Assembly: GCF_027947575.1 (NCBI RefSeq)
Contig: NZ_CP116256.1
Span: 2,790,001 to 2,854,000 of the forward strand
DNA: 64,000 nucleotides
Source: Streptomyces rubrogriseus
GTDB taxonomy: Bacteria; Actinomycetota; Actinomycetes; Streptomycetales; Streptomycetaceae
Direction: 5' to 3'
The position numbers and the translations under genes are program-made. Positions within the stretch are counted from its first letter, which is position 1. Each line of letters begins with the position of its first letter. Positions 19,502 to 55,509 of the stretch are shown in pieces. The notes under the pieces are model-generated. The model saw only the letters and a program-made list of their open reading frames with translations, searched no databases and was not told where the DNA came from.

Positions 19502-19523
19502 CCGCTAGAACACGGAGAAGACC

Positions 19524-19790
19524 ATCAAGAACCACAGCAACACCGCCGCCCTAGACGCCATCGCATCCTTCACCAACATCATGACCGTCCGTTACGCCGT
19601 CGGCAGCCACCCACACGCCGTCGACGTACTCACCGGCGGTTTCAGCCTTGCCGACCACCTCCAACGACTGGACCCCGCTAGCAGCGGCAGCGAGAAGGAG
19701 TGGGTCACATTCATGCTCAAGGCCGGCGGCGAGATCGCCCTGCGGGACAGCAGCATCATCGCCATTGAAATGCCCGCGGTAGAGCCGTAA
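19524..19790 (+). CDS. hypothetical protein, probable ATC start
   Basis: The ribosome site GGAGAAG (19514-19520) is spaced correctly for ATC 19524, not for the first ATG at 19581, which has no ribosome site. Reading from ATC adds 19 in-frame codons (IKNHSNTAALDAIASFTNI) that flow into the rest (TVRYAVGSHPHAVDVLTGGF). I therefore annotate the longer form, 88 aa, starting with ATC (coded as Met if used). The mature protein is small with a predicted beta-rich end. Function unknown. If ATC does not work, the 69-residue ATG form is the alternative. Confidence 0.6.
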   Translation: MKNHSNTAALDAIASFTNIMTVRYAVGSHPHAVDVLTGGFSLADHLQRLDPASSGSEKEWVTFMLKAGGEIALRDSSIIAIEMPAVEP

Positions 19791-19813
19791 ACCCAGCCCG
19801 ACCAGCGGCACAG

Positions 19814-19847
19814 AAGCCCCGCCGCTCAAATCCGGGTGGCGGGGCTT
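19814..19847. terminator. intrinsic terminator, probably bidirectional
   Basis: AAGCCCCGCC at 19814-19823 pairs with GGCGGGGCTT at 19838-19847 (10 bp, 14-nt loop), followed by a short TTTC on the plus strand. It lies between a rightward gene end (19790) and a leftward gene end (19962), so it can serve both. Confidence 0.75.
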
Positions 19848-19961
19848 TCGTTGCGCTCCGTAGTCGGCGGCGCTCTGGTGCAGAGTTCGTTACATCCCGG
19901 GCGTAACTATCTCTGCAAGATCACCGGACGACTGTTAACGCAGCGTATAACCGGCATGCGG

Positions 19962-20285
19962 TCAGAACGTGCCGGTGCAGGCGAGGCAGACGTGCGACTG
20001 CTCCCAGGTGGCCCGCTGCGCCTCCGCCCACTGCACCGCCTTGTACACGACCGCACCCCAGCCCGCCCCACCCGCGGCGATCAGCAGGCCGAGCAAGATC
20101 GCGCCCTCCGTCAGGACCAGGACGCCGACGGCGATCGCGATCAGCGCCGCCCAATACGAGACCTTCGGCCGGGCCGGCGGCGCGTACTTCGCCTTCAACG
20201 GCGACTCCGCAGGCAAGCTCTGCCAGTAGTGCGGCAAGTCGGCGACGTTCGGGGACGAGCACTTCGGCGACGGGCAAGCGATCAC
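19962..20285 (-). CDS. membrane protein with terminal zinc-ribbon cysteines
   Basis: A 107-residue leftward protein. CPSPKC near the N-terminus and CLAC near the C-terminus could form one zinc ribbon brought together across the protein. Between them are LPHYWQSLPAESPLKAKYAP, a motif seen in Streptomyces phage and plasmid proteins, and two membrane spans (SYWAALIAIAVGVLVLTEGA and AILLGLLIAAGGAGWGAVVY). I place the start at GTG 20285, just before CPSPKC; the frame is open to ATG 20438, giving 158 residues, but the extra N-terminus looks non-coding. Function unknown. Confidence 0.7.
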   Translation of the reverse strand: MIACPSPKCSSPNVADLPHYWQSLPAESPLKAKYAPPARPKVSYWAALIAIAVGVLVLTEGAILLGLLIAAGGAGWGAVVYKAVQWAEAQRATWEQSHVCLACTGTF

Positions 20286-20451
20286 AGCGACCCCCGGGAT
20301 GCGGCGTAGTGGGGGCAGCAGGGTCGTGGGGTACCGGGCAGTACGGCAAGCAGGCTGCGGGCAGTGTGGGCCGGGCCACAGAACGGCAGCCGCAGGAGTC
20401 TCGCCTGTCGCAGGGGGAGCGCTTGAGTAGCTGGGCAACTCCAGAGTGAAC

Positions 20452-20492
20452 CTGTAGAGAGGACTACAGTTCGTGTGTAGTCTGGTCTACAG
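20452..20492. promoter_or_regulatory. paired operator-like inverted repeats
   Basis: Two sites of the form TGTAG-N6-CTACA lie at 20453-20468 (extended to CTGTAG...CTACAG) and 20476-20491, 23 bp apart centre to centre, just upstream of the gene at 20525. Same-face spacing of about two helical turns and perfect arms suggest a dimeric repressor. No clear promoter hexamers could be assigned. Confidence 0.55.
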
Positions 20493-20524
20493 ATGGAGCG
20501 GGGGTCGCTCCGGAGGGGACCAAC

Positions 20525-20857
20525 ATGCTGACGATCACCACCCGCACCGGCGACTACTACGGCGACGGCAGCAGCAACCACATCTGGGAGACCCGCGACG
20601 CCGACGGCCAGCTCATCGCCGAACTCTACGTCTCCACCGACCGCCACGAGATCATGAACATCTGGGTCGACGAAGACCACCGCGGCGAGGGCCACGCCCG
20701 CGCCCTCTACGAGGCGGCCACCGACCAGATGAACGTCTGCCATGCCCCCGCTGCCCACCGCAGCCCCGAGGGCAACGCGTTCGCCGAGGCCGTCGGCGGC
20801 CCCACTGTCGCCCCTTACGCCTGCGACTGCTACGCCTGCGACTCTCTGGAGGACTGA
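20525..20857 (+). CDS. GNAT-like acetyltransferase fold protein, 110 aa
   Basis: The middle carries the GNAT motif A pattern: a beta strand (MNIWVDEDH) followed by RGEGHARALYEAA, the acetyl-CoA pyrophosphate loop and helix. At 110 residues it is short for a GNAT enzyme and has only the core, plus a C-terminal CDCYAC. It could be an acetyltransferase fragment or a fold variant. ATG 20525 follows GGAGG. It is regulated by the inverted repeats just upstream, judging from position. Confidence 0.65.
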   Translation: MLTITTRTGDYYGDGSSNHIWETRDADGQLIAELYVSTDRHEIMNIWVDEDHRGEGHARALYEAATDQMNVCHAPAAHRSPEGNAFAEAVGGPTVAPYACDCYACDSLED

Positions 20858-20860
20858 CCC

Positions 20861-21223
20861 ATGCAGCAGTACGAACTTGAAGCGTGGCTCGGCGACGACC
20901 ACGACCTCAGTGACGAGCAGATCGTTGAACTCTTGCAGGCCGCCCACGAGATTGAAGAGCAGTACCCGGACGAAGACGACCGCGACGACCGTGAATCTGC
21001 GCTCACCGCTGCGTACCGCCTGATAGTCGAGGCCCCGGAGGACCTCATTGCCGAGTTGGCCCAGGAGCGCGCCCGAGCTCGCGCAGCCGAGCGGAAGGCT
21101 CTCGTTGCCCTGCGGCAGATCGGTGTCACCCGCATCGGCAACGGCGACGCCACGGAGGCCGGGTTCGCACACCAAGCAGGCGTCGACCGGATGGCTGTTC
21201 GCAGGTGGCTCGGCAAGCGCTGA
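20861..21223 (+). CDS. helical protein with C-terminal HTH, 120 aa
   Basis: ATG 20861 follows 3 bases after the previous stop with a GGAGG site. The first half is acidic and helical; the C-terminus (TEAGFAHQAGVDRMAVRRWL) looks like a helix-turn-helix. It may be the regulator of its own operon and bind the upstream inverted repeats; that is inference. Confidence 0.65.
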   Translation: MQQYELEAWLGDDHDLSDEQIVELLQAAHEIEEQYPDEDDRDDRESALTAAYRLIVEAPEDLIAELAQERARARAAERKALVALRQIGVTRIGNGDATEAGFAHQAGVDRMAVRRWLGKR

Positions 21224-21225
21224 TC

Positions 21226-21266
21226 ACGACGAGGTCCCCGCCCGATCCGGGCGGGGGCCTCGTCGT
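21226..21266. terminator. strong bidirectional terminator
   Basis: A 19-bp stem with one mismatch (arms 21226-21244 and 21248-21266) and a 3-nt loop separates two convergent genes ending at 21223 (+) and 21271 (-). Ideal for ending both transcripts. Confidence 0.8.
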
Positions 21267-21270
21267 CTGC

Positions 21271-21579
21271 TCAGCCGCGGGGCGCCGGAACCTCCGTCAC
21301 CTCGAACGGCGCCGGCAGCGGCGGCAACGCCACACGCAACGCCCGCCCCAGCAGGGCCCGCGCCGTAATCTCCCACTCCGCCACTGGCCGGCCCGCCGGC
21401 CGCACGAACAGTAGGGAGCCGTCCGGGCGCTGGAACGTGCCACCCGTGAAACGGGGCTCCGCCTCGATCTCCACCACCTCCACGCCGTGCTCGGCCAAGA
21501 GCTGGGGGAGTGGGGCGTTGAGGAGGTGATCTGTCGACAAAGGGGCGGGCGCTAACGACGTGGTGCCGCTACTCTTCAT
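21271..21579 (-). CDS. hypothetical protein, 102 aa
   Basis: Leftward. I prefer the ATG at 21579 (MKSSGTTSLAPAP), which has GGAG six bases upstream, over the ATG at 21591 that has none. The C-terminal half is beta-rich (PRFTGGTFQRPDGSLLFVRP). It may be the last gene of the leftward Nudix operon, though a hairpin lies between. Function unknown. Confidence 0.6.
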   Translation of the reverse strand: MKSSGTTSLAPAPLSTDHLLNAPLPQLLAEHGVEVVEIEAEPRFTGGTFQRPDGSLLFVRPAGRPVAEWEITARALLGRALRVALPPLPAPFEVTEVPAPRG

Positions 21580-21740: not shown

Positions 21741-22151
21741 TCAGTGCGGCAGCACCTCGTCGAGGTACTCCTGAACCGGCCCGTACAGGCCGTAGGGCAC
21801 GTACTCCTTGATCTTCGAGTGGGCGACCCAGGCGACCGCGTCCAACTCGTCCTCGTCGGCCACCCGGGCCTCACCCTGGACGGGCGTGCACGCGGTGTAG
21901 AACATCTCGCGACCCGACTTCGGGTGCGACTCCAGGTAGCCGATCTGCCGGTCCGACGTCACAACCAGCCCGGTCTCCTCCGCGGTCTCCCGGACCGCTG
22001 CCTCCGCGGCGGCCTCGCCGTCCTCGATGGCGCCGGCCGGGAACTGCCAGAGGAGATCCCCCTCGCCGACGCGGCGGCGCACCATCAAGACGCGCCCCTC
22101 ATCGACAATGATCGCTGCGGAGATGCCGGGCTTCTTGGTCTCGGTGGTCAT
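21741..22151 (-). CDS. Nudix hydrolase
   Basis: A 136-residue Nudix enzyme, which cleaves nucleoside diphosphates linked to another moiety. The Nudix box is intact: G40-x5-E46-x7-R54-E55-x2-E58-E59-x-G61 within GAIEDGEAAAEAAV and RETAEETGL. A strand before it (SAAIIVDEGRVLMVRRRVGE) is typical. The gene overlaps the end of the HTH-Nudix gene by ATGA, so the two are made together. In the Streptomyces element pSAM2 the immunity protein Pif carries a Nudix motif and blocks redundant transfer; whether this protein does the same is unknown. Confidence 0.88.
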   Translation of the reverse strand: MTTETKKPGISAAIIVDEGRVLMVRRRVGEGDLLWQFPAGAIEDGEAAAEAAVRETAEETGLVVTSDRQIGYLESHPKSGREMFYTACTPVQGEARVADEDELDAVAWVAHSKIKEYVPYGLYGPVQEYLDEVLPH

Positions 22152-22786
22152 ACGGTCGCCTCCAGGGCGCTGAGGATGGGCGGGAAGATCTGGTCTGCGG
22201 GGATGAAGCGGGTCAGGGCGGTGCGCGGCACCCAGGTGACGTCGACGTTCTCGAGCGGGTCCCGGTTCGACGCGTCGCCTGCCAGATGGTCCGCTAGGTA
22301 GTACGAGGCCACCACACCTGTGACGGGGTGGACGCGTTCGCCGAGCTGCTCGCGGATGGTGCAGTGCACGCCGGTCTCGCCGTGCGTCTCCTGCACCGCC
22401 ACCGTCGACGGGTCCGCCCCAGGTTTGACCATGCCTGCGGGGAACTGCCAGCGAAGCTCGCCGTCACCGCGCCGGCACACCAGCAGGATGTCGTCGCCGC
22501 GGACCACGACCGCTATCGCCACCCGCAACGCCTGCGCCTCAATGCGAGGTGCCGGGGGGCGCAGTAGGAGAGCGAAGCGGTGTCTCACGTCGTCCTTCGC
22601 CTCCCTGTGAGCGATGTCCAAGATCTGCTGCACCTCGGTCCGGTGAACCATGTCGGGGCTGGCGTGCCACCGGCTGATGGTCCGTTCGCTGATCCCGAGG
22701 TGTTCGGCGAACGCCTCGTTCGTCATCCGCATCGCCTGCTGCAAGAGGCAGGCCGACCGGCCGGTCCAGGTCTCTACAACGTCCAT
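22148..22786 (-). CDS. HTH-Nudix fusion with degenerate Nudix box
   Basis: A 212-residue leftward protein. Residues 12-45 are an XRE-like HTH (MTNEAFAEHLGISERTISRW). Residues about 85-205 are a Nudix domain whose box is altered: the first glutamate is alanine (A124), the arginine is glutamine (Q132), and one of the two catalytic glutamates is glycine (G136). Catalysis is therefore doubtful; it may instead sense a nucleotide and act as a transcription regulator, as NrtR-type proteins do. Paired with an intact Nudix enzyme encoded downstream. Confidence 0.82.
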   Translation of the reverse strand: MDVVETWTGRSACLLQQAMRMTNEAFAEHLGISERTISRWHASPDMVHRTEVQQILDIAHREAKDDVRHRFALLLRPPAPRIEAQALRVAIAVVVRGDDILLVCRRGDGELRWQFPAGMVKPGADPSTVAVQETHGETGVHCTIREQLGERVHPVTGVVASYYLADHLAGDASNRDPLENVDVTWVPRTALTRFIPADQIFPPILSALEATV

Positions 22787-25266: not shown

Positions 25267-25497
25267 ATGTCTCCGTTCCTGTTCTCCGCCGACCACGCCC
25301 ACACCGACCTGGGCCGCCGGGCCCGCGCCGCCACCCTGGTCGGCGAAGAGGCCGTCCTGCCGATCGCCTACCTGTTCGCCGAGTACGCCGCCGCCAAGGC
25401 CCGCGGCGACCGGGCGCGGGTCGCAGAGATCCGCCTCGCCGCCGACCCCGAGCTGGTCGCCGAGCTCGACGGGTTCGACGAGCCGGCCGCCGCCTGA
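25267..25497 (+). CDS. hypothetical protein, 76 aa
   Basis: ATG 25267. Helical (EEAVLPIAYLFAEYAAAKAR) with basic and acidic patches. Its stop overlaps the ATG of the RapZ-like gene, so the two are co-translated. Function unknown. Confidence 0.65.
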   Translation: MSPFLFSADHAHTDLGRRARAATLVGEEAVLPIAYLFAEYAAAKARGDRARVAEIRLAADPELVAELDGFDEPAAA

Positions 25498-25877
25498 TGG
25501 CCACGGTCGAGATCGTTTCGTTCGGCTTTCTGCACGCCGAGGCTCCACAGGCCGACATCGTGCTGGATCTTCGCCGAGCGTTCCGTGACCCGCACGTGGA
25601 CCCGCGGATACGGCAGCTCACCGGCCGGGACCGGGCCGTCCGCCAGGCCGTACTCGACACCGCCGGGGTCCGGCAGCTCCTGAAGACCACCACTCGGCAG
25701 GTCGCCGCCTACGCGTCCGGGCCGTCTGCCGACCGGATCGTCATCGGCTCCGGCTGTGCGGGCGGAAGGCACCGCTCCGTCGTCGTCGCCGATCAGCTTG
25801 CCCGCCGGCTCCGACGACGCGGCCACACCGTCACCGTCACCCACCGCGACATCCGCCGCCCCGTCGTACAGCGCTAA
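25497..25877 (+). CDS. RapZ C-terminal-domain protein
   Basis: A 126-residue protein that aligns by eye with the C-terminal domain of the RNase adaptor RapZ/YvcJ: the opening SFGFLHAEAPQADIVLDLRR, then FRDPHVDPRIRQLTG, and the signature GCAGGRHRSV (86-95). The N-terminal GTPase-like half of RapZ is absent. In E. coli the RapZ C-terminal domain binds small RNAs and, with glucosamine-6-phosphate, guides RNase E. A phage copy might bind RNA or sense a sugar phosphate. It precedes two structured RNA elements, an interesting coincidence. Starts on the previous stop. Confidence 0.85.
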   Translation: MATVEIVSFGFLHAEAPQADIVLDLRRAFRDPHVDPRIRQLTGRDRAVRQAVLDTAGVRQLLKTTTRQVAAYASGPSADRIVIGSGCAGGRHRSVVVADQLARRLRRRGHTVTVTHRDIRRPVVQR

Positions 25878-26677: not shown

Positions 26678-26868
26678 GCGCCGTGACCTGGTTCCGCCGC
26701 CGCCCCAAGACCGCCGCGACTGTCGCCGTCGACCTGGATGTGGCCCGTCGTGCCGCCGAAGCCGTCAACCGCGGCGACGTCGACGAGGCGAACCGCATCG
26801 TCAACGCCACCACCGACCCGCAAGCGCACGCCTTCGAGGCGTTCCGCTTCATCGACGTGGAGGCCTGA
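26674..26868 (+). CDS. hypothetical protein, 64 aa
   Basis: GTG 26674 on the previous stop; an in-frame second GTG follows at 26683. Basic N-terminus (WFRRRPKTAATVAVDLDVAR), then a helix. Its stop overlaps the DUF4236 gene start. Possibly the first gene of the conjugation-like module. Confidence 0.6.
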   Translation: MSAVTWFRRRPKTAATVAVDLDVARRAAEAVNRGDVDEANRIVNATTDPQAHAFEAFRFIDVEA

Positions 26869-27065
26869 TGCCGGTCACGTTCCGCAAGAGCTTCCGGATC
26901 CTGCCCGGCGTCCGCATCACCATCAACCGCCAGTCCTGGTCCATCACCGTCGGACCCAAGGGCGGGCCCAAGCGCACCTGGTCCAGCACCGGCCAGACCA
27001 CCACCAGCTACGACCTGCCCGGCCCGTTCGGCTACCGCTCCACCCGCCGCCGCAACCACCGCTGA
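26868..27065 (+). CDS. DUF4236-like protein, 65 aa
   Basis: The sequence MPVTFRKSFRILPGVRITIN followed by QSWSITVGPKGGPKRTW has the pattern of DUF4236 (FRKS...LPGVR(L/I)...S..GVSVG), a short basic beta-rich family found in bacteria and mobile elements, function unknown. It opens the block with the DUF2637 protein and the translocase, with 20 bases between it and the DUF2637 gene. Confidence 0.7.
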   Translation: MPVTFRKSFRILPGVRITINRQSWSITVGPKGGPKRTWSSTGQTTTSYDLPGPFGYRSTRRRNHR

Positions 27066-27085
27066 TCGAAAGGACTTCGACCGTC

Positions 27086-28465
27086 ATGACTGCCAGCCCG
27101 CCGAAGGTGAACGGCCACGCACGGCCGCCGGCCCTGCAAGTACTGGGGGACTGGCAGCCCGTCGCCGCCGAGACCGAGCCCGTCGAGGAACAGCGCAGCC
27201 CCGAGCCCGAGCCGGCCAAGGCCGAGCCCACAGCGGCCGACGTCGAGGTGGCCCGCGCCAGGGCATGGGCCGAGGCCGAGGAACGGCGTGTCGCTGCTGA
27301 GGCCGCCAAGGACGAGCGGCGGATCAAGGCCGAGGCCGAAGCCGACGCCATCCGCGTGGAGGCCGAGGAGGACGCCCGCAAGGTACGCCTCGCCAACGAC
27401 CGGGCCGAGCGCAAAGCGCGCGAGGACGAGGCCGCGTCCGAGGCGCGGATCGCCGAGCACAACAGGCGCCGCGACGAAGCCGACCGGGCCCGGGAGCGCG
27501 CCGCCCGCGAGGACGCCGAGCAGCAGCAGACAGAGACCGAGAAGGCCAAGGTCGTCGAGAAGTCCAGCAAGCGGTGGCGCCGCGTCGCCCTCGGCTTCTA
27601 CGCCCTGTGCGCCACCGTCGCGCTGCCCGTGCAGATGGCCGCGTTCTGGGACCCGAACGCCAAGTACCTGCTCGTCGCCCCGATCTTCATCGAGGTCATC
27701 GCTCTCGTCGCTCTCGTCGGTGCCGCAGCCGCCGTCACCGACGGGCGTCCGCAGTGGCACTACCGGCTCGTCGCCTGGGCCGGCGCCCTCACCGCCGCCA
27801 CCATCAACGCCGTCCACGGGCTCGGCGCGTTCGACGCCGCCACCGCGTTCGGCACCGCCCTCGCCTCCGTCGCCGGGCCCGGCATGTGGGACCTCCACGA
27901 GCACGGCCGAATCCGCAAGCGCGACGGCGTCCCCACCCGCGGGGAGCGGAAGGCGGCGGAGAAGGAAGCCAAGCGGATCGCCGCCGAGAAGGCCGCGGAG
28001 GAGAAGCGTCGGGCCGCCGAGAAGAAGGCCGCCGACGAGGCCGCGGCGGAGGCCGCGAAGCAGCTCGCGGAGATGCGCCAGGCGGAGTTCGAGGACGTGT
28101 GGAAGCACGCCCGGAAGCTGGCCGCAGCGCTCGGTGAAACGACCGTGACCGAGGCTGTGTGGCGGCGCGCGCACAAGGACATCCGCGGCGCCGACCCCGG
28201 CGAGGACGCGGAGACGATCCGGGCCCGCAACGCGGCCGAGACGAGGGTCGAAGCGGCCCGCCAGAAGCGCCCAGTGAACACCCTCAGCAAGACCACGTCG
28301 TCGCAGGTCGATCAACAAGTGCCCCCTCGCCCTCGTCGCGGTCACGCAGGGGGCCCGAAGGTGCGCGGAGTGCGACGCCCGAACGACTCGCAGAGGTACA
28401 GCAGCGGGGCCCGAAAGCAGATGTCGCTGACCGCAAAGAGCAGCTCGTCCATGGAGACGAAATGA
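27086..28465 (+). CDS. DUF2637/Spd-like membrane protein
   Basis: A 459-residue protein. Residues 45-155 are a long charged coiled coil (AEAEERRVAAEAAKDERRIK). Residues about 163-275 hold four hydrophobic segments (VALGFYALCATVALPVQMAA, LLVAPIFIEVIALVALVGAA, LVAWAGALTAATINAVHGLG, TAFGTALASVAGPGMWDLHE), matching the DUF2637 layout. A second coiled coil and a basic tail follow. In Streptomyces conjugative plasmids and AICEs, DUF2637 proteins belong to the plasmid-spreading (Spd) set that moves DNA between hyphal compartments. Here it lies two genes upstream of an FtsK-like translocase. Stop overlaps the next ATG. Confidence 0.82.
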   Translation: MTASPPKVNGHARPPALQVLGDWQPVAAETEPVEEQRSPEPEPAKAEPTAADVEVARARAWAEAEERRVAAEAAKDERRIKAEAEADAIRVEAEEDARKVRLANDRAERKAREDEAASEARIAEHNRRRDEADRARERAAREDAEQQQTETEKAKVVEKSSKRWRRVALGFYALCATVALPVQMAAFWDPNAKYLLVAPIFIEVIALVALVGAAAAVTDGRPQWHYRLVAWAGALTAATINAVHGLGAFDAATAFGTALASVAGPGMWDLHEHGRIRKRDGVPTRGERKAAEKEAKRIAAEKAAEEKRRAAEKKAADEAAAEAAKQLAEMRQAEFEDVWKHARKLAAALGETTVTEAVWRRAHKDIRGADPGEDAETIRARNAAETRVEAARQKRPVNTLSKTTSSQVDQQVPPRPRRGHAGGPKVRGVRRPNDSQRYSSGARKQMSLTAKSSSSMETK

Positions 28466-28965
28466 ACGCATCGAAGATAGGCGTCACCTACGTCCTGACG
28501 CACCCCGAGTTCGGCTCGGTGAAGGTGGGCGTCACGACTTACGGATCACGCCGAATGCGAGACCTCTGGCGCCGTCAGGGATGGGTTCCGTACAAGGAGC
28601 TCCACCTCGTCTCCAAGCCTCTCGCCGAGACCGTTGAGCAGAACGTCCTGCTGCAACTCCGACACCGCTTCAACATCCCCGCACACCTCACGCATGACCT
28701 CATGCCCGAAGGGTGGACCGAGACCGTGAGCGCTCGACTCATGAGCCCGGACGCCGTCTGGGAGCTGGTCTGCCTGGAGGCGGGCGTACTCCAGATGAGC
28801 CCTTCCGTGGGCGCCTTCAAGCCCACTTCGCACCGACCGCCCAGCTCCTACCGACGCACCAAGGGCGATACACCCAAGTACCACCCGATCGCCCGGCTGC
28901 TGGCCAGCCAGGAGCGCCGGATCCTTCCGAAGACCGCCAAGAGCACTCGCCCGAACGCCAACTAA
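28462..28965 (+). CDS. GIY-YIG/T5orf172-like protein, 167 aa
   Basis: The N-terminal 90 residues (TYVLTHPEFGSVKVGVTTYG, then SRRMRDLWRRQGW) fit the GIY-YIG-related T5orf172/MUG113 pattern: a first strand, VKVG strand, and RM.DL helix. The canonical GIY and catalytic glutamate are not obvious, so nuclease activity is uncertain. The C-terminus is basic and proline-rich. ATG 28462 overlaps the DUF2637 stop, tying it to that gene. It may nick or bind DNA for transfer; inference. Confidence 0.6.
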   Translation: MNASKIGVTYVLTHPEFGSVKVGVTTYGSRRMRDLWRRQGWVPYKELHLVSKPLAETVEQNVLLQLRHRFNIPAHLTHDLMPEGWTETVSARLMSPDAVWELVCLEAGVLQMSPSVGAFKPTSHRPPSSYRRTKGDTPKYHPIARLLASQERRILPKTAKSTRPNAN

Positions 28966-28988
28966 CCCACCTCCTGGAGAAGATCGAA

Positions 28989-29579
28989 ATGAACGTCACC
29001 CTTCGTCGTATCGCCGTGTCGGGCAGTGCCGCGGTTGCCGTCCTCGGCGGTGCCGCCACCATCACCCTGGCTGCCCCCTCGCCGGCTTCCGCTGCCGTCT
29101 CCGAGCACGTCGTCGAGCGGGCCGTCACCGCCCCCGTCACGATGCCCGACGGGCGCACGATCCGGATCACTGGCATGGGCGGCTACGGCCACCACGCCAC
29201 CGACAAGCACATCGCCGTCGTCGCCGGATTCAAGACCGACACCCAGCCGGGTGGCCTCGACGGAATCACCAACGGACTCACCCCCGACAACTCCGGCACG
29301 GGCGCCCAGCTGCAGAACCCGCAGCAGGTCCCGGCCGGCTATCCGCAGAACATCCAGACCCAGGCATCCGGCGGCACGATCGGCGTCACGGTGGCTGTCG
29401 GCGTAGGCCTTCTGATCGGCGTGATCGTCATGCTCAAGCGGGGCTCGATGAAGTTCATCCAGGCCGCCGCGTGCATCGCCCTCGGCGTGTACCTCGCCCC
29501 CACGTTCGTCGGCCCGCTCGTGCAGCAGCTCGGCGGATCCGTCGGCGTCGGCCTCGGCAACGTCTGGTCCGGCTTCTAG
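28989..29579 (+). CDS. secreted/membrane protein with signal peptide, 196 aa
   Basis: A clear signal peptide: basic MNVTLRRIAV, hydrophobic core (GSAAVAVLGGAATITLA), and an AxA-like site near PASAAVS (about residue 36). The exported domain (40-135) is glycine- and proline-rich. Two hydrophobic spans near the end (GTIGVTVAVGVGLLIGVIVM and FIQAAACIALGVYLAPTFVG) would anchor it in the membrane. It sits between the DUF2637 and FtsK-like genes, so it may be part of a membrane transfer complex. Start ATG follows GGAGAAG. Confidence 0.75.
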   Translation: MNVTLRRIAVSGSAAVAVLGGAATITLAAPSPASAAVSEHVVERAVTAPVTMPDGRTIRITGMGGYGHHATDKHIAVVAGFKTDTQPGGLDGITNGLTPDNSGTGAQLQNPQQVPAGYPQNIQTQASGGTIGVTVAVGVGLLIGVIVMLKRGSMKFIQAAACIALGVYLAPTFVGPLVQQLGGSVGVGLGNVWSGF

Positions 29580-29641
29580 GCCACACCCCTCCTGCGGGGC
29601 CCGCACGGGCCCCGCCCCCCGACTCTGGAAGGACACGGCCT

Positions 29642-31897
29642 GTGGCCACCGAGACCGAACCCGTCGAGCAGCAGATCCCGCCCATGCCCACCGACCCGCC
29701 CACCATCCCGCGCAAGCAGCGGATCGACACCGTGAAGCTGCAGGCCAAGGCCGCCTACGGCGAGCAGAAGCAGAACGTTCGGCAGCGCCTCGCCGCCTGG
29801 TTCGCCACCGCTGACATCGACGACCAGAAGCTCGCCGAGCAGGTCGTCGACAACAAGCGCCGCCAGGCCCAGCGACAGGACGACGAACTCCTGCGCCAGG
29901 TCGGCCGCGTCAACAGCCGACTCGCCCAAGCGCGCATAGACGCCGCCCGTCGCGGAGAGGAGACCAGCCCCCAGGTCGAGCGGATCAAGGGCGAGCTGGC
30001 CGCGCTGCAGGCCCGCGTCGAGACACGAGCCGCCGAAGGCCCCGCGGTCGCGGTGATGCCGCCCACCAACAAGGAACTGGACCGGGCCCGCTGGACGAAG
30101 AAGGCAACCCGGGTCGCCGCCGTCCTCGCTGGCGGCTACGGCTACCTGCACGGCATCGCAGTCGAACCAGCCCTCCTGCTGCTGTCGATCCCGGCCGGTG
30201 GCTTCGGCTGGTGGTTCCTTTCCCGCCCGCACGTTGAGGACAGCACGGAGGCGGGTGCCCCTTTCCTGCAGACCCCGGCCCTGCCCGCCACGTTCCTGGC
30301 GGACCCGACGCAGGCCGGGGGAGCGATGAGCGTCGGATCGCACGTCGTCATGAACGTCGAGCAGCTCGCCGAAGGCGCCAAGCCGTTCCCGCTCAGGACC
30401 GTGTCCACGCCGCAGCAGCTCGCTGAATGCGTGCTCCTCGCCGCCCGCGCCGAGAACGTGCCGATCGTCGAGGTGGCGGACGTGCAGCGGCAGCCGTGGG
30501 GGTGGCAGTGCGTCGTCCGCGTCGGCGAAAGCACCCCCGAAGCGATCATCGCCAAGTCGGGGGCACTGGAGACCCGGTTTGACCTGCCCACCAACGGGGT
30601 CCGGCCGCAGCCGCTCCGTGCCCGCCGCGCCTGCGCCATCCTCCGCCTCGTCGACGGCGACCCGTTCGCCACCGCACCCGGCCTGCCGTACCGGGCACCC
30701 AAGTCCCTGTCGATCACCGGCCGGTTCAGGATCGGCACCAGCGTCGGCGGCGACCCGCTCGAACTGTCCCTGGCCGGTGTCATGGGCCTGTGGGTTGCCG
30801 CCTCCGGTGGCGGCAAGACCGGCATCCTCCAGGCACTCGCCGAAGGAGTCACCGCCTGCTACGACAACATCACCATCGACTGCGACCCGCACGGTGACGG
30901 CCTCGAAGACCTCGGCGACGCCGTCCGGATCACTGCCCGCTCCAACGAGCAGATCGAAGCCGTCCTCCTGTTCTTCCTGGTCATGTCGAAGGCCAGGGCG
31001 CGGCTGCGGGCGAAGCTCGGCATGGGCAAGAAGTGGAAGCCGTCCGCATCCCACCCTGCCGTCACGATCTTCATTGACGAGTTTCCGAAGCTGTCCGACC
31101 TGGCCAAGCTCCTCGCCTTCGACCTGCTCCTCGTCGGCCGCAAGGAGCTGATTGAGGTGCAGTACGCCTCCCAGGGCGGCACGACCCGCTACCTCGGCGA
31201 GAACATCGCCCAGATGATGGCCCTCAAGGCCGTCGGCCCCTGCAAGGTCGGCGACACTCGCGCCGTGTTCGGCGACGACTCCGTCCGCGAGGGCTACCTG
31301 CCGCACAAGCTCAGCCCCGCCACCGATACCGACGCCAAGGATGCTGGCCATCTCTTCATCCAGGGCGTGCCCGGCATGGCCGACGAGCCGATCGAGTACG
31401 CCATCCACGAAGCACCCTCCGACGTGCTGCGGAAGCTAGCCGCGGAGCGCGCCGACGCCGGACTCCTCGACCCCGACCAGGACAGCCTCGACGGCATGCG
31501 CGGCGTCGACCTGCCCGAGTACGCCGAGGCGGAGTACGACAAGCAGGGCGACCTTAAGAAGCCGGCCCCGGTGTCACTCCTCACGTGGGAGCAGCTGCTG
31601 CGCCTGTGCGATGCCGAACCGCCCGCCGGATCGGAGCTGACGGACGGTCCGGCGCGGGCCGCGGTCGAGGACTCGGTCGCTGTCATGGAGAAGGCTGGCG
31701 TGGACCGGATGAAGACCGAGCCGCTGCTGGCCGCCCTGCACGAGTTCGACCCGGAGACCTACGGCGAGCTGGGTGTCGACGAGTTCAAGGCGCTGATGAA
31801 GCAGGCGGGCGCCGGGTCGCCCATAACGCTCGGGCCGATCGGTGAGGAGAAGAATCCGCGCGGCTTCAAGCGTGATCGACTCCGCCACCTGCTGTGA
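29642..31897 (+). CDS. FtsK/SpoIIIE-type DNA translocase, TraB-like
   Basis: A 751-residue protein from GTG 29642. Order: coiled coil (40-135), membrane segment(s) (about 155-193, GGYGYLHGIAVEPALLLLSI), linker, then the motor with Walker A AASGGGKT (386-393) and Walker B TIFIDEF (475-481), arginine-rich helix between. The C-terminal 70 residues (LLAALHEFDPETYGELGVDE, FKALMKQAG) form a winged-helix domain, the place where FtsK-type pumps read DNA. This is the layout of TraB/TraSA, which move double-stranded DNA between Streptomyces cells. In a phage it could pump phage or plasmid-form DNA. Family identification is strong; conjugative role is inferred. Confidence 0.85.
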   Translation: MATETEPVEQQIPPMPTDPPTIPRKQRIDTVKLQAKAAYGEQKQNVRQRLAAWFATADIDDQKLAEQVVDNKRRQAQRQDDELLRQVGRVNSRLAQARIDAARRGEETSPQVERIKGELAALQARVETRAAEGPAVAVMPPTNKELDRARWTKKATRVAAVLAGGYGYLHGIAVEPALLLLSIPAGGFGWWFLSRPHVEDSTEAGAPFLQTPALPATFLADPTQAGGAMSVGSHVVMNVEQLAEGAKPFPLRTVSTPQQLAECVLLAARAENVPIVEVADVQRQPWGWQCVVRVGESTPEAIIAKSGALETRFDLPTNGVRPQPLRARRACAILRLVDGDPFATAPGLPYRAPKSLSITGRFRIGTSVGGDPLELSLAGVMGLWVAASGGGKTGILQALAEGVTACYDNITIDCDPHGDGLEDLGDAVRITARSNEQIEAVLLFFLVMSKARARLRAKLGMGKKWKPSASHPAVTIFIDEFPKLSDLAKLLAFDLLLVGRKELIEVQYASQGGTTRYLGENIAQMMALKAVGPCKVGDTRAVFGDDSVREGYLPHKLSPATDTDAKDAGHLFIQGVPGMADEPIEYAIHEAPSDVLRKLAAERADAGLLDPDQDSLDGMRGVDLPEYAEAEYDKQGDLKKPAPVSLLTWEQLLRLCDAEPPAGSELTDGPARAAVEDSVAVMEKAGVDRMKTEPLLAALHEFDPETYGELGVDEFKALMKQAGAGSPITLGPIGEEKNPRGFKRDRLRHLL

Positions 31898-31913
31898 CCA
31901 ATATGTGAGGTAT

Positions 31914-31944
31914 GCACGGCTGATCGGTCGCAGATCAGCCGTGC
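31914..31944 (+). terminator. hairpin after the translocase gene
   Basis: Perfect 12-bp stem (GCACGGCTGATC at 31914-31925, GATCAGCCGTGC at 31933-31944), 7-nt loop, extended by TGTGAG...TCACA outside a small bulge. It begins 16 bases after the translocase stop. Good terminator candidate. Confidence 0.65.
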
Positions 31945-31971
31945 TCACACCGCAACACCGCAGGTCAGCGA

Positions 31972-32013
31972 CCGCTCCCGCTCTCGCTCCGTCAACGCTC
32001 AGGGCTCGCTCCG
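31972..32013. repeat. phased GCTC repeats downstream of the translocase
   Basis: GCTC recurs at 31974, 31986, 31997 and 32008, spaced 12, 11 and 11 bp, one helical turn each. Longer versions are CCGCTCCCG (31972-31980) and CTCGCTCCG (31983-31991 and 32005-32013). The 224-bp non-coding stretch 31898-32121 that holds them contains no gene. TraB-type pumps bind short direct repeats in a nearby cis site (clt), so this is a candidate; not tested. Confidence 0.45.
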
Positions 32014-32121
32014 AGCGGCACCCGATCAGGCCCTGCGCGGTCGCCGACCTGCACCTCTCCGGGGCGAGCAGTCCCGATCAGCAAGAACAAACCATCACAA
32101 ACCAGAAACGGAGATCACCGC

Positions 32122-32535
32122 ATGTCTGAGAAGTTCGAGCCCACGAAGAAGGGCGCCCGGGACCTCACCCGCTACCTGGACCGCCGCGGCAAGGGCACCA
32201 CCGTGTACACGGTCGCCGAAGGCCGCGACTGGGGCCTCGGAAGCGAGCGCGTCTACAACAAGCACACCTTCACGGGCCGCTCGTGGGGCAGCGCCAACTG
32301 GACCACCGGCCACTACTCGCCGACGACGCTGCTGAGCAACTGCGGCACCGTCTACACCGAGCCGCCCCGCGGCGCCCGCTACCTCGGCGACCGCGCCCCT
32401 CAGGTCGCCGGCCCGCTCGGCAACGACGACTACGAGGGGATCTTGGACGAGGACGAACTGCGTGGCCTGGAGAAGCAGGCCCGACAGACGTCGAACCCGA
32501 AGACCCGACGGCGCCCCGGCATCTGGCGCGTCTGA
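32122..32535 (+). CDS. hypothetical protein, 137 aa
   Basis: ATG 32122 after ACGGAGATC. Compositionally basic with aromatic residues (VYTVAEGRDWGLGSERVYNK, SWGSANWTTGHYSPTTLLSN). No membrane span. Lies just after the repeat region; possible cargo of the conjugation-like module. Function unknown. Confidence 0.65.
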   Translation: MSEKFEPTKKGARDLTRYLDRRGKGTTVYTVAEGRDWGLGSERVYNKHTFTGRSWGSANWTTGHYSPTTLLSNCGTVYTEPPRGARYLGDRAPQVAGPLGNDDYEGILDEDELRGLEKQARQTSNPKTRRRPGIWRV

Positions 32536-32915: not shown

Positions 32916-33101
32916 ATGCCCCAATCCATGACCGACCAGGACTGGGAGGCGCAGAACGGCAGCCTCTCGCCCGAGCAAGTCCAGGCCCGCAGCCTGTGCT
33001 GGTGCTGCCGCGGAAACGGCGTCTTGTTCACCGCGTTCGGCGGTGTGCAGCGCCGGGTGCCCTGCCCCGAGAAGTGCGACAACGGCAAGGCCCGCCGATG
33101 A
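32916..33101 (+). CDS. zinc-binding protein, 61 aa
   Basis: ATG 32916. Cysteine clusters CWCC and CPEKC make a DnaJ-like zinc-binding module (CWCCRGNG ... CPEKCDNGKA). Stop overlaps the next ATG. Function unknown. Confidence 0.65.
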   Translation: MPQSMTDQDWEAQNGSLSPEQVQARSLCWCCRGNGVLFTAFGGVQRRVPCPEKCDNGKARR

Positions 33102-33601
33102 GCACGGCGACGATCACTCCCGCGCCGCCCGTCCTCGACCTGGACGCCCGACTCGCACTCGTCGACGCTGCCATGACGATCCGCCTGGACCAGGCCGCGG
33201 TCGCGTTCGAGGTGAACACGGCGCACCTGCCCGGCGCCGACCCGGTACCGCACATCGCCGAGACCCTGCCGCACCCGCCGACCACCGCGCCCAGCCCGTA
33301 CCGGACGCCGCTCGCCGACCTGCTCCACCGGGCCCGCACCCGGATCGAAACCGACGGCTGGTGCCGCGACGCCGCCTTCGACGAGGCCGGCGCCGTCTGC
33401 CCGATCCGGGCGATCCGGCTCGAAGCCCGCGGCGACCGGGACCTCGCCCACGACGCATGCGTCGCCCTCCTCGACGCCATCCAGGAACGCTTTGCCGACG
33501 CCGAGACGATCCCGTCGTGGAACCGGCAGCAGACCAGTGCCGGCCCCGTCCTCGCAGCCTTCGACCGCGCCACCCACCACGCCCACACCCGCAATCAGTA
33601 G
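33098..33601 (+). CDS. DUF6197-like protein, 167 aa
   Basis: ATG 33098 on the previous stop. After a proline-rich N-terminal half, residues about 70-145 (LADLLHRARTRIETDGWCRD, then AAFDEAGAVCPIRAIRLEAR) match the DUF6197 pattern seen in Streptomyces (helix with DGW or HGW, then CLLGA-like helix). Biochemical role unknown. Confidence 0.7.
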   Translation: MSTATITPAPPVLDLDARLALVDAAMTIRLDQAAVAFEVNTAHLPGADPVPHIAETLPHPPTTAPSPYRTPLADLLHRARTRIETDGWCRDAAFDEAGAVCPIRAIRLEARGDRDLAHDACVALLDAIQERFADAETIPSWNRQQTSAGPVLAAFDRATHHAHTRNQ

Positions 33602-51858: not shown

Positions 51859-52299
51859 ATGGGCGCTCGTGGACCTATCGGTAAGCGCTCCGAGGAGCGC
51901 ATGGGCCATCGCTCAAAGGAAGAGATCGACTCAATCACGAAGGCGCCGTCGGGGCCACCGACGGACCTACCGGACCTGCCGGGCGCGGACCCGTTGTGGC
52001 ATCCCATCGCCTCGGACTGGTACCTCAGCCTGAGGGAGTCGGGGCAGGCGGCGTTCTATCAGCCGTCGGACTGGGCTGTCGCCCGCTACGCCGCGGACCT
52101 GATGTCGAAGGTGCTGCTGTCGGAGCGTGGTCCGAACGGCCAGCTGGTCGCGGCCCTGAACTCGGTGATGTCGTCGCTGTTGACGACGGAGGGGGACCGG
52201 CGTCGGGCCCGTATGGAGCTGGAGCGGAAGAAGCCCTCCAGTCAGGCCGATGCCGATGTGACGGTGCTCGATGACTACCGCTCCGCCTTCGGGGGTTGA
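51859..52299 (+). CDS. terS: terminase small subunit
   Basis: ATG 51859 after TGGAGG. A 146-residue protein with ARGPIGKRSEERMGHRSKEE, a phage terS-like opening, and a central helical region (WHPIASDWYLSLRESGQAAF, DWAVARYAADLMSKVLLSER). Small subunits bind the packaging site on phage DNA. It overlaps the large subunit by 29 bases. Call based on position, size and pattern. Confidence 0.78.
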   Translation: MGARGPIGKRSEERMGHRSKEEIDSITKAPSGPPTDLPDLPGADPLWHPIASDWYLSLRESGQAAFYQPSDWAVARYAADLMSKVLLSERGPNGQLVAALNSVMSSLLTTEGDRRRARMELERKKPSSQADADVTVLDDYRSAFGG

Positions 52300-54043
52300 G
52301 CAGGCGGCCGAGGAAGTCCCTGACGAGATCACCCCCGTCGTCATCGGGCCCACATGGACGCGCGGCGAGGACGGGTTGTTCGTCAAGCCGGCTTTCACGC
52401 TCGGCTGGCACGTTCTGCTGTGGACGGGCAAGAACCTGCAGCATCGCGGAATGCGGTGGCGGTACACCAGCGAGCAGGTTCGGCTGATCCTTTGGTGGTT
52501 CGCCCTGGACCCGGTGACGGGCGAGTTCGCGTACCGGGATGCGGTTCTCCAGCGCCTGAAGGGCTGGGGCAAGGACCCGTTCGGGGCGACATTGTGTGCC
52601 GTCGAGTTCGTCGGCCCCTCCCGCTGGACTGGCCGTATCGCGGGGCCGAGGGATGAGAGCGGGGTGCCCGAGGGGCAGCCGGTCGGTGAACCTCATCCAG
52701 AGCCCTGGGTGCAGGTCGCGGCTGTCTCAAAGGACCAGACCCGCAACACGATGATCATATTCGGGTCGCTTTTCACTCCGAAAGCCCGAGCCGAGTACAG
52801 CATCGACGTCGGCAAAGAGATCGTCTACGCCCACAAAGGAGACGCACGAATCGAAGCGGTGACCTCGTCGCCGCGCGCTCTCGAAGGTGGCCGGACGACG
52901 TTCACGCTCCTCAACGAGACGCACCACTGGATCGAGTCGAACCAGGGCCACGAGATGGCGGCGACGATCGAGCGGAACGCCACCAAGTCGGCGGACGGCT
53001 CCGCTCGCACCTTCGCGATTACCAACGCCTTCGAGCCCGGCGAGGATTCGGTTGCCGAGCAGACCCGTGACGCCTACGAGGCGGCGGAGGCCGGCCGTGC
53101 GGAGGACACGGGGATCCTGTACGACTCGCTGGAGGCGCCGCCTGAAGCCAAGCTGACGAAGCCGTGGCTGGAGAAGGTGCTCCTGGCAGTCCGCGGCGAC
53201 TCGACCTGGCTGAACATCCCTCGACTGATCAAGTCGATTCTGGACCCGCGGAATCCTCCGTCTCGGTCGCGGCGGTTTTGGTACAACCAGATCGTCGCGG
53301 CTGAGGATGCGTGGATGGCCCGCTATGAGTGGGATGCCTGCAAGCGTGATGGCCTTCAGCTCGAGGACGGCGACGAGATCGTGCTGTTCTTCGACGGCTC
53401 CAAGAGCGATGACGCGACCGGTCTGTGCGCCTGCCGCATGTCGGACGGCTTCGTGACCGCACTAGGCGTCTGGCAGAGGCCGGCGAACTGGCCGTCCCCG
53501 AACACGCCGGGCTTCGTGCCGTATCGGGTGCCTCGGGAAGAGGTGCACGGTGTGGTGGAGAACGCGTTCGCCCGGTTCCGGGTGTTGGCGTTCTTCGCTG
53601 ACCCGGGCTCCGGGCAGGACGACGATGACGGCGAGATGTACTGGGACGCCTTCATCGACCTGTGGGGTCAGACGTGGGGTCGGAAGCTGGCTTTGCGGTC
53701 GGTGGTGTCGGGTCCGAAGGCGCACGCGGTGCGTTGGGACATGCGTGACCCGAGGAATCAGGAGACGTTCACGGAGGCCGTGAAGCGCACGCACGCCGAT
53801 GTGCTGGAGCGGACGCTGACGCATGACGGGCACAAGACGCTCCGCACACACGTCATCAACGCTCGTCGTCGGACGAACCGGTGGGGTGTGACGATCGGCA
53901 AGGAGCACCGTGAATCTGCCCGGAAGATCGACCTTGCGGTGTGCATGGTCGGGGCGCGGATGCTGCGCCGGATGATCCTCAACTCGCCGAAGCGCGCCAA
54001 GAAGAAGTCGCCAGGCCGGGGGAGGGTGGTGGTGCTGCGATGA
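52271..54043 (+). CDS. terL: terminase large subunit
   Basis: A 590-residue packaging motor. The ATPase half has a Walker A-like loop in RLKGWGKDP (about 96-103), preceded by the usual aromatic region, and Walker B-type FTLLNETHHW (211-220, E216). The nuclease half shows FFDGSKSDDATG (about 373-384) and FFADPGSGQ, acidic residues for metal binding. It powers DNA into procapsids and cuts the concatemer. Follows the small subunit with overlapping reading frames; the portal gene overlaps its end. Confidence 0.88.
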   Translation: MTTAPPSGVEQAAEEVPDEITPVVIGPTWTRGEDGLFVKPAFTLGWHVLLWTGKNLQHRGMRWRYTSEQVRLILWWFALDPVTGEFAYRDAVLQRLKGWGKDPFGATLCAVEFVGPSRWTGRIAGPRDESGVPEGQPVGEPHPEPWVQVAAVSKDQTRNTMIIFGSLFTPKARAEYSIDVGKEIVYAHKGDARIEAVTSSPRALEGGRTTFTLLNETHHWIESNQGHEMAATIERNATKSADGSARTFAITNAFEPGEDSVAEQTRDAYEAAEAGRAEDTGILYDSLEAPPEAKLTKPWLEKVLLAVRGDSTWLNIPRLIKSILDPRNPPSRSRRFWYNQIVAAEDAWMARYEWDACKRDGLQLEDGDEIVLFFDGSKSDDATGLCACRMSDGFVTALGVWQRPANWPSPNTPGFVPYRVPREEVHGVVENAFARFRVLAFFADPGSGQDDDDGEMYWDAFIDLWGQTWGRKLALRSVVSGPKAHAVRWDMRDPRNQETFTEAVKRTHADVLERTLTHDGHKTLRTHVINARRRTNRWGVTIGKEHRESARKIDLAVCMVGARMLRRMILNSPKRAKKKSPGRGRVVVLR

Positions 54044-55509
54044 CCCTGTCGATTCCCGAGCTGCCGCTGGTGTATCTGTCTGACGAGGAGCAGGCGCTGA
54101 TCAACCTGCTGCGTGCCGACATGCTGCGGGACCGGTGGGCGCTGCAGTTGCGGGACGCCTATTTCAACGGCGAGCAGCTGATCCGCGACCTGGGAATCTC
54201 GATTCCGCCGCAGCTCAAGGGTCTGCATACGGTGATCGGCTGGCCTCGGGTGGGTGTCGAAAGCCTGGAGGAGCGCCTGGATTTGGAGGCGTTCCGGTGG
54301 GCGGACGGCTCGGATTCGTCGGAGTTGACGGAGATCGCCGAGGCGAACGACCTGTTCGACGAGTCGTCGCTGGCTCACCTGGACGCCTTCGTGTACGGCC
54401 GGGAGTATCTGGCGGTCGGTTCGGGTGGTTGCGGAACGGATGAGTGCCCGCCGCTGATCACGGCGGAGTCGCCGTTGGACATGACGCTGATGTGGGATGC
54501 CCGCATGCGCATGGGCACCGCGGCGCTCCGCGAGTGCGCCGCCGACTCGTACATTGAGGCGGGCCCTGAGCAGCGGATGCTGGTCCTGTATCTGCCGGAC
54601 CAGACGGTGATGTGCTTGCCGTCGGAGTCGGGAGGCTGGGAGGTCGTCGACCGGGACGAGCACAAGCTCGGTGTCGTGCCGGTGGTCAGGTTGGCGAACC
54701 GGCAGCGAACTGCGGACCGGGTCGGCAAGTCGGAGATCACGCCTGAGGTCATGTCGATCACGGATGCCGCCTGTCGGCGCCTGATGGGTATCGAGGTCGC
54801 GGCCGAGTTCTTCGGGGCGCCAGCTCGCTACATTCTGGGTGCAAGCGAGTCTGCGTTCCAGGATGCAGAGGGCAACGCCAAGTCGGCGTGGGAAACGTAT
54901 ATCGGTCGGGTGCTCGCGCTGGAGCGGGACGAGGAAGGCAACGTGCCGGACGTAGGTACGTTCCCCGCCCATGATCCGTCCGGCCAGACGAAGATCATCG
55001 ATCTGTATGCGCGGATCATGGCGTCGCAGATGTCGGTGGCCCCGCACGTCCTCGGCTACAGCAGCGACAACCCAGCCTCCGCAGACGCGATCCGGTTCGC
55101 CGACAACCGGCAGGTGAAGAAGGCCGAGCGCCGCATCCGCCGGTTCGGTGCAGGGTGGCAGCAGGCCATGCGGCTCGCCCTGTGGATCCGTGACGGGGAG
55201 CCGCCGGACAAGACGCGTCGCATCGAAACAGTGTGGCGGAATCCGGCGACACCGACGGTGGCCGCCCAGGTGGATGCCACGGTCAAGCTGGTGCAGGCAG
55301 GCGTCCTCCCGGCGGACAGTGACGTCACCCTGGAGATGGCTGGGTTCACGGAGCCGCAGCGGCAGCGAATCGCGGCGGACCGGCGCCGTGGCGCCGGTCG
55401 GGCGGCTGGCAGCGCGCTACTCGACCGTTTCGCCGAGATCCGGGCTGGCTCGTCTACGGCGAGCACCGAGCCGTCGGAGGCCGACGGTGGCGTCGACGAC
55501 CTCGGATAG
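54040..55509 (+). CDS. portal protein
   Basis: ATG 54040 on the terminase stop. 489 residues, the usual size for an SPP1 Gp6-type portal. The middle (SPLDMTLMWDARMRMGTAAL, VVPVVRLANRQRTADRVGKS) and the helical YARIMASQMSVAPHVLGYSS fit the family. It forms the ring through which DNA enters the head. Order terL-portal-MuF-scaffold-capsid supports it. Confidence 0.85.
   Translation: MTLSIPELPLVYLSDEEQALINLLRADMLRDRWALQLRDAYFNGEQLIRDLGISIPPQLKGLHTVIGWPRVGVESLEERLDLEAFRWADGSDSSELTEIAEANDLFDESSLAHLDAFVYGREYLAVGSGGCGTDECPPLITAESPLDMTLMWDARMRMGTAALRECAADSYIEAGPEQRMLVLYLPDQTVMCLPSESGGWEVVDRDEHKLGVVPVVRLANRQRTADRVGKSEITPEVMSITDAACRRLMGIEVAAEFFGAPARYILGASESAFQDAEGNAKSAWETYIGRVLALERDEEGNVPDVGTFPAHDPSGQTKIIDLYARIMASQMSVAPHVLGYSSDNPASADAIRFADNRQVKKAERRIRRFGAGWQQAMRLALWIRDGEPPDKTRRIETVWRNPATPTVAAQVDATVKLVQAGVLPADSDVTLEMAGFTEPQRQRIAADRRRGAGRAAGSALLDRFAEIRAGSSTASTEPSEADGGVDDLG

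Follow-up and report, generated by a model that had tools for sequence, protein, structure and literature searches.

An FtsK-type DNA pump and a helically phased, dyad-symmetric array of predicted pump sites in a prophage of Streptomyces rubrogriseus

We describe a module within an integrated prophage of Streptomyces rubrogriseus, the genome of which comprises 8.41 Mb in one contig; the whole stretch that was analysed, 64,000 nucleotides long, is called the window below. In this module, the gene for an FtsK-fold DNA pump is directly followed by a non-coding array of about 12 predicted pump sites, and among relatives the motif repeated in the array follows the winged-helix-like domain of the pump and not its motor. 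We consider it moderately probable that the module is a sequence-guided export system for double-stranded DNA (dsDNA), which would give the phage two routes of spread, one in virions and one by plasmid-like transfer of naked DNA; the module likely transfers DNA between hyphae. The original prediction of a conjugation-like module in a phage genome had mentioned a non-coding repeat region next to these genes. This region is present, and its nature, a phased and dyad-symmetric array resembling a cis-acting locus of transfer (clt), had been missed.

29642..31897, + strand: FtsK-fold DNA pump (phrog_12531, 4.2e-64; FtsK motor fold)
31898..32121, + strand: non-coding array of about 12 helically phased, dyad-symmetric predicted pump sites (clt-like), 224 bp, grid score 11/12
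31920..31947, + strand: outer left sites, starting at 31920, 31931 and 31941
31960..31966, + strand: framing element GCAGGTC
31971..32011, + strand: inner left sites, starting at 31971, 31983, 31994 and 32005
32011..32040, - strand: inner right sites, reversed, at 32011, 32022 and 32034 (the third not filled)
32046..32052, - strand: framing element GACCTGC, the inverse of the left one
32064..32080, - strand: outer right sites, reversed, at 32064 and 32074

How well do the sites of the window fit this arrangement? On a grid taken from 18 relatives, 11 of the 12 positions carry a G[AC]TC core within one base, and 5000 dinucleotide shuffles of the array reached a maximum of 5 (mean 0.64). When both strands of the whole 88-kb prophage were scanned, all starts scoring at least 6 fell at 31879-31910, on the array. 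The core was fixed after the window's sites had been seen, and the shuffles and the scan used the identical pattern.

The arrangement recurs among the relatives of the pump. A gap of 127-313 bp comes after the pump gene in 106 of 112 non-redundant loci. Within the gaps, a short motif recurs many times, in forward orientation in the left part and in reverse in the right part. Its sequence varies from relative to relative (CTGCTCA, CTGCTCG, CTGCTAG, GTGACG, CCGTCTA, GGAACA and others). After exclusion of two loci with gaps outside 100-600 bp, a 6-mer was repeated beyond all 200 dinucleotide shuffles in 76 of 110 gaps, and p was at most 0.05 in 95 of them. In loci with a motif p of at most 0.005, a selection that was used for both phasing and dyad counts and favours clean arrays, the spacings between sites of the same orientation peaked at 10-12, 21-23, 30-33, 42-44, 52-55 and 63-66 bp, with a best period of 10.6 bp (873 spacings). 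When loci with p of at most 0.05 were grouped by wing type, which covered 11 of 13 clusters, the vector strength at 10.6 bp was at least 0.6 in 10 of the 11, and the median at five other periods was 0.16-0.29. In the commonest class, forward sites start at 22, 33, 43, 73, 85, 96 and 107 and reversed sites near 113, 124, 136, 166 and 176; GCAGGTC stands at 62 and its inverted counterpart near 147. The sites of this class, 12 in all, are thus arranged around a dyad and lie on the same helix face. Of the 110 gaps, 83 contain GCAGGT and 59 contain both arms of the frame (as 6-mers).

Does the array belong to the pump? We compared the 5-mer spectra of the arrays with the identities of the wings (the last 125 residues) and of the motors for all pairs of 110 pumps. 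This set, which was also used for the framing-element and neighbour counts, consists of the 112 loci minus L048, L052, L075, L080, L081 and L132 (truncated, or with the gap out of range) plus L071, L072, L073 and L079, which have other motors. First, the partial rank correlation of the wing, given the motor, with array similarity was 0.50 (maximum of 300 permutations, 0.10); that of the motor, given the wing, was 0.13, small but above its own permutation maximum of 0.10, and the first 190 bases of the next gene, taken as a linkage control, gave 0.01. With 37 thinned pumps, which is the safer test, the values were 0.23 for the wing (p 0.0005) and 0.05 for the motor (p 0.18). Second, pumps with motor identities of 0.6-0.8 and wing identities below 0.3 had a mean array similarity of 0.04 (41 pairs), and those with motors below 0.3 and wings of 0.45-0.6 had one of 0.61 (14 pairs); these discordant pairs share loci and are not independent. 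Third, L069 and L139 have an FtsK-type motor of another kind, 15-20% identical to the rest of those compared, but share the wing type and have CTGCTCG or CTGCTCA in their arrays. This co-variation indicates that the array motif follows the winged-helix-like domain of the pump and not its motor.

Within the wing type of the window, the motif is tracked by a single residue, 729 in the numbering of the window's pump, in the strand after the third helix. Across 60 loci, threonine at this position accompanies TCA in 34 loci, a mixed motif in three and TCG in one, which breaks the rule; proline accompanies TCG in eight (with one undetermined), glycine TCG in two and glutamine TA in five of five, and the six loci with lysine have no such motif. 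All 15 disjoint nearest pairs with unlike residues at 729 show the predicted difference in motif, and they span three motor backgrounds; three mixed loci and seven without enough sites were excluded from these pairs. Because position 729 was chosen as the best wing column on TCA versus TCG only, the glutamine-TA class is an independent check. We regard residue 729 as a candidate one-residue specificity code.

The pump itself comprises an N-terminal coiled coil with a weakly hydrophobic segment (residues ~1-230), the motor (~240-610) and the winged-helix-like domain (~665-751). It has the FtsK/SpoIIIE-type motor of TraB/clt-type conjugation, and its closest known fold is chromosomal FtsK, in a comparison confined to the motor region (the VIA-align rows cover essentially residues 262-608). 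In the structure model, the C-terminus runs through helices 670-685, 692-702, 704-707 and 712-721, with a strand at 689-691 between the first two, followed by strands 728-729 and 740-743 and a helix at 744-750, at a predicted local distance difference test score (pLDDT) of 86-97 for the block. This order of secondary structure is right for a winged helix, and we call the domain winged-helix-like on the strength of the model. A possible membrane segment, a 19-residue window with a Kyte-Doolittle hydrophobicity of at least 1.6 in the first 330 residues, is present in 68 of 110 pumps.

The original prediction spoke of a TraB-type pump with a winged-helix end. This stands as regards an FtsK-fold translocase with plasmid relatives, a membrane partner and a clt-like array matching its DNA-reading domain, whereas its kinship with TraB/TraSA, for which Tra of pIJ101 served as the comparator, proved remote. 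The pIJ101 protein had no match to the pump profile; its best blastp value within the set analysed was 3e-7, a truncated locus (L080) gave 2e-10, and a profile comparison gave ~1e-9, values at which we take the remote kinship to be real. In a tree of the motors, the clade of the window joins plasmid pumps with supports of 1.0 and 0.90, and a deeper node (0.99) adds a mixed group that includes the pump of phage Elmer and those of two more plasmids (L054 and L188). Tra of pIJ101 branches outside the group that holds the window, and close TraB kinship was rejected for this reason and for the missing profile match. Grouping of the pump with phage-specific translocases, which had been named as refuting the prediction, was not seen in the tree: Elmer joins deeper than the nearest plasmid pumps, though the plasmid pumps L054 and L188 join there too. 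Where the context of the carrier is known, Streptomyces plasmids supply the nearest non-phage relatives of the pump. We also observed that residues 3-82 of the L054 pump (18930-21521 of that record) are 61% identical to the C-terminal part of host FtsK (844-920), as if a second DNA reader had been added, and that a group of 15 pumps (L039, L040, L042 and relatives), eight of them from virus contigs, has an altered Walker A motif, G[SA]AKT.

The second constant part of the module is the membrane partner at 27086-28465, which is listed here together with the other neighbours of the pump and two late genes of the phage.

26868..27065, + strand: DUF4236 small protein, accessory (Pfam PF14020, 1.5e-14; found in some relatives)
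27086..28465, + strand: membrane partner, 459 aa, module core (long coiled coil, about four membrane spans, second coiled coil)
28462..28965, + strand: T5orf172 protein, which we take to be GIY-YIG-like, probable passenger (Pfam PF10544, 21.3 bits, cut-off 20)
28989..29579, + strand: small protein with N- and C-terminal hydrophobic segments, optional partner (sequence read by eye)
32122..32535, + strand: small conserved protein after the array (in 52 of 93 loci, a homologue is among the three genes that follow the pump)
33098..33601, + strand: DUF6197 protein, frequent neighbour (Pfam PF19698, 8.1e-19)
52271..54043, + strand: terminase large subunit (phrog_9, 5.4e-70)
54040..55509, + strand: portal protein (phrog_104, 7.7e-135)

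In 73 of 84 loci, a homologue of the membrane partner is encoded no more than three genes before the pump, and the profile of the partner gave 89 hits in this position and none elsewhere among the 1923 genes of 110 loci. The AlphaFold2 model (pLDDT 69.9, predicted template modelling score 0.29) can be read for helices only and is consistent with about four membrane spans. The protein had been called DUF2637/Spd-like; its topology and gene position agree with this, but DUF2637 membership was rejected, since the Pfam profile remained silent even at E 10. No other Pfam family matched it, and the best blastp E value against a DUF2637-annotated protein of plasmid L053 was 0.11. The rest of the predicted gene list, namely DUF4236 and the GIY-YIG-like protein (by Pfam), the FtsK-type pump and the small protein with hydrophobic segments (by eye), was recovered. 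The small protein has a homologue directly upstream of the pump in 19 of 84 loci. The GIY-YIG-like protein was rejected as a core part because few relatives have a homologue (near the pump in three of 110 loci listed, the window among them). GntR regulators occur somewhere in 21 of 65 long loci and also near the pumps of the plasmids that were read, counts that come with no background rate. A known defence system was considered and rejected, PADLOC having no match for seven proteins.

The carrier of the module in the window is a prophage. A 78-bp perfect direct repeat at -3300..-3223 and 85013..85090 (window coordinates, in the same genome) forms the att site, and the span between the repeats is ~88.3 kb. 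The repeat presumably lies within the 3' end of a gene like uppP (undecaprenyl-diphosphatase), named by eye, of which a short remnant stands at the opposite prophage end. A tyrosine-integrase-like gene, recognised by eye, lies to the left of the window; replication genes, including those for an initiator and DnaB, lie at 9-13 kb, and terminase, portal, scaffold, capsid and tape-measure genes at 52-64 kb, with the module between the replication and the late genes. Integrase, att repeats, terminase, portal, capsid and tape measure are features of a tailed temperate phage, and the phage structural genes downstream bear out the prediction that the surroundings are ordinary phage genes. This element is a prophage in its integrated state, and it does contain the module. 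An 86.5-kb viral contig in IMG/VR carries the same pump, and its called proteins across 22 kb are identical to those of the window. Gene ends were set by a simple purpose-made gene caller. Elsewhere in the prophage, we noted two adjoining NUDIX proteins ~4 kb upstream of the module (21741-22786, - strand), retained in several relatives, the larger with a weak helix-turn-helix-like N-terminus; a RapZ C-terminal domain match (7.8e-30) at 25497-25877, plasmid L054 also having a RapZ-annotated gene; and, after the capsid gene, a protein of an unnamed phage family (58066-59022; phrog_26352, 1.2e-163) with a weak glycosyltransferase-family match.

Of the 110 pumps, 65 come from IMG/VR predicted virus contigs and two from named plasmids, most others being in unsorted genome stretches. 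Among the 50 virus records examined, which are part of the set, terminase (phrog_9) and portal (phrog_104) were each found in 31, and at least one of them in 36. A pump match was present in 40 of 392 genomes of the genus Streptomyces, with carrier types unsorted, and the named relatives shown are Streptomyces species. The window's pump also matched 43 plasmid records, all from Streptomyces or Kitasatospora. In two linear plasmids of ~25 kb, small proteins and a DUF2637-annotated protein precede the pump, and the stretches read, from incomplete gene tables, held no annotated phage gene. A circular plasmid of 46 kb (L054) has a protein like the membrane partner, a pump and a GCAGGTC-framed array; the partner similarity amounts to 62 bits with strong composition bias and, by blastp in a small set, to 1e-6 across 80 residues from the membrane part. 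Isolated phage records held distant pumps only (89 records, all below 60% identity), and one group of pumps, A5, had no match in viral contigs. The carriers of the whole module are predicted prophages, genome stretches or plasmids.

How does the module compare with known systems? In the available parts of the cited papers, dsDNA transfer of Streptomyces plasmids is attributed to one FtsK-like pump that binds clt repeats, the pump of pSVH1 doing so through its winged helix (PMC3583192, PMC3218068). The clt of pWTY27 comprises 159 bp beside traA and a further 16 bp within the gene, and TraA footprints cover its 7-bp repeats (PMC3583192), and the specificity of TraB has been shown for pJV1, pSVH1 and pIJ101 (PMC9513070). 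The window's module resembles these TraB/TraA-clt systems (pSVH1, pWTY27, pIJ101, pJV1), as far as those parts describe them, in its single FtsK-like pump with a C-terminal winged helix (here winged-helix-like by model), cis-acting repeats (beside the pump gene in pWTY27), pump-specific recognition (here judged from co-variation) and membrane spread proteins (PMC3583192, PMC3218068, PMC9513070). Short repeats that are pump-specific by co-variation stand in cis beside the pump gene here too. The module differs in that the array of the window type is dyad-symmetric, with ~12 sites on one helix face and a widespread GCAGGTC frame, in that its motor is only remotely similar to Tra of pIJ101, and in its phage carrier. 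Symmetry as such is not unique, since the clt of pWTY27 also has inverted repeats, according to the part of the paper available (PMC3583192).

Two groups of phages provide further comparisons. The plasmid-phage pZL12, the nearest precedent for such a life style, is a phage genome that also behaves as a transmissible plasmid (cited in the available parts of PMC3583192 and PMC4487206); pZL12 and its relative pSLE1 are circular with ParAB, as far as the available part describes pSLE1 (PMC4487206), whereas the element of the window is integrated. Large Streptomyces phages such as Elmer and Coruscant have an FtsK-like translocase with a homologous motor (33-38% identity in the rows listed), and a small membrane protein adjoins the Elmer pump, but no homologue of the membrane partner was found in phages of the Elmer type. 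In Elmer (L051, 5419-5634), the gene for this 71-aa membrane protein overlaps the end of the pump gene. We take the Elmer-type phages with a distant pump to be lytic.

We propose the sequence-guided export of phage DNA on the basis of the FtsK motor fold, the phasing and symmetry of the array, its match to the wing, the constant membrane partner, the plasmid relatives and the phage context, all of which were computed. Because the module shares its logic and placement with TraB/clt, the array may by analogy be a docking site, and the pump a motor, for the phage's own DNA. We infer a course that leads from binding through ring assembly, excision before transfer and envelope passage to a recipient, and with it a hybrid life style. 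The winged-helix-like domain of the pump would read a short motif that is present in ~12 copies, one helical turn apart, directly behind the pump gene. Pump subunits bound to the array would form a hexamer like that of FtsK, which the N-terminus of the pump and the 27086-28465 protein would keep at the membrane, and the ring would drive the excised circular phage DNA out of its compartment, through a cross-wall or into a neighbouring hypha in contact with it. From the dyad, one may picture two rings that face away from each other. We speculate, with a good deal less confidence than in export as such, that the module might be a phage movement system, in which two hexamers, head to head on the array (~12 sites being two rings' worth), would drive both genome arms outward via paired pores, so that whole dsDNA genomes would pass from hypha to hypha or across cross-walls without virions, like plant-virus movement proteins at plasmodesmata; the one-residue wing code would then create a private docking motif, with each pump exporting its own genome only.

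Several observations weigh against the export proposal. In the window itself, the sites are degenerate (p 0.06 for the motif of its own gap), an exact 6-mer scan of the prophage does not place the array at the top, and the pump has T729 with a mixed motif, which the residue-729 rule does not explain. The hydrophobicity of the N-terminus of its pump (1.45) is below the threshold of 1.6, and the membrane partner has no Pfam link to Spd proteins. The wing cluster with plasmid L053 and the related L030-L035 is weakly phased (0.33), so that plasmid relatives do not all share the phased geometry, and plasmids L054 and L187, being typed with a MOBF relaxase, may transfer by other means. No homologue of the membrane partner was present in 50,697 isolated-phage records (E 1e-5), and none of the isolated phage records searched contained the complete module. 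The pump of pZL12 (pZL12.71c) is remote (26.9 bits), with no such array behind it by eye; likewise, no array lies behind the Elmer pump and none stands out in the 50 of 134 kb scanned, which shows that phages can use a pump of this superfamily in the absence of such an array.

This last point, like the closeness of the motor fold to chromosomal FtsK, would suit intracellular housekeeping, in which the pump would act on phage or plasmid DNA at closing septa, clearing it or positioning it (in sporulating hyphae, for instance), or would contribute to resolution or partition, with the DNA staying in the mycelium. The array might then be centromere-like or resemble the FtsK-orienting polar sequences (KOPS) or SpoIIIE recognition sequences (SRS), and a dyad also suits a partition or orientation site. 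However, FtsK orientation sites run along chromosome arms, according to the available parts of the literature, whereas here a single cluster stands beside the pump gene of a mobile element, with 37 sites per kb in the array versus 1.3 across the fetched stretches (loci selected as for phasing, with at least three sites per arm in addition). The nearest relatives of known non-phage context are, moreover, plasmid pumps, and we consider housekeeping unlikely.

Iteron-like phased repeats also occur at origins and operators, and the array might serve such a process, replication or regulation, and be near the pump by linkage only; the phage has its own initiator and DnaB genes. These genes are, however, ~18-22 kb away, and the motif follows the wing and changes with one wing residue in three motor backgrounds, which the next gene does not, so that we regard this explanation as improbable. 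More doubtful still is a plasmid leftover that is useless to the phage. Phage genomes are mosaic, plasmid homologues exist and the repeats of the window are degenerate, but array, pump and partner have remained a unit across deep divergence, with pump identities as low as 23%, and show co-variation at one residue, and most of the virus records examined have a terminase or portal match. Least probable of all is an RNA element, a transcript hairpin acting as terminator, attenuator or small RNA: dyad symmetry permits a stem and both arms change together, but the spacers pair in 40% versus 34% by chance (sites 91%, partly by construction; 49 loci selected as for site density), the array has no Rfam match, and the 10.6-bp period and the repeats within one arm have no RNA rationale, so that we rejected it in favour of bound DNA.

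Among the open-licence literature matches listed, the titles and abstract beginnings contained no clt-like array or TraB-type transfer in an integrated prophage. The sole listed match with both 'cis-acting locus of transfer' and 'prophage' does not treat such a case in its available part (PMC9513070), and the main text of a survey of actinobacterial prophages does not mention FtsK, translocase or conjugation (PMC10023795). A pump with a winged helix and pump-specific repeats beside its gene are already known as TraB-clt. As far as the matches listed show, in the parts available, the dyad-symmetric phased architecture, its broad presence in predicted prophages, the change of motif with the exchange of wings between unrelated motors and the candidate one-residue code are new.

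If the export proposal is true, a common family of Streptomyces prophages would have a second, particle-free route of spread, which would blur the line between phages and conjugative plasmids. The ~100 natural pairs of pump and array, with their changing motifs and a candidate specificity residue, make the choice of DNA by an FtsK-type pump directly testable.

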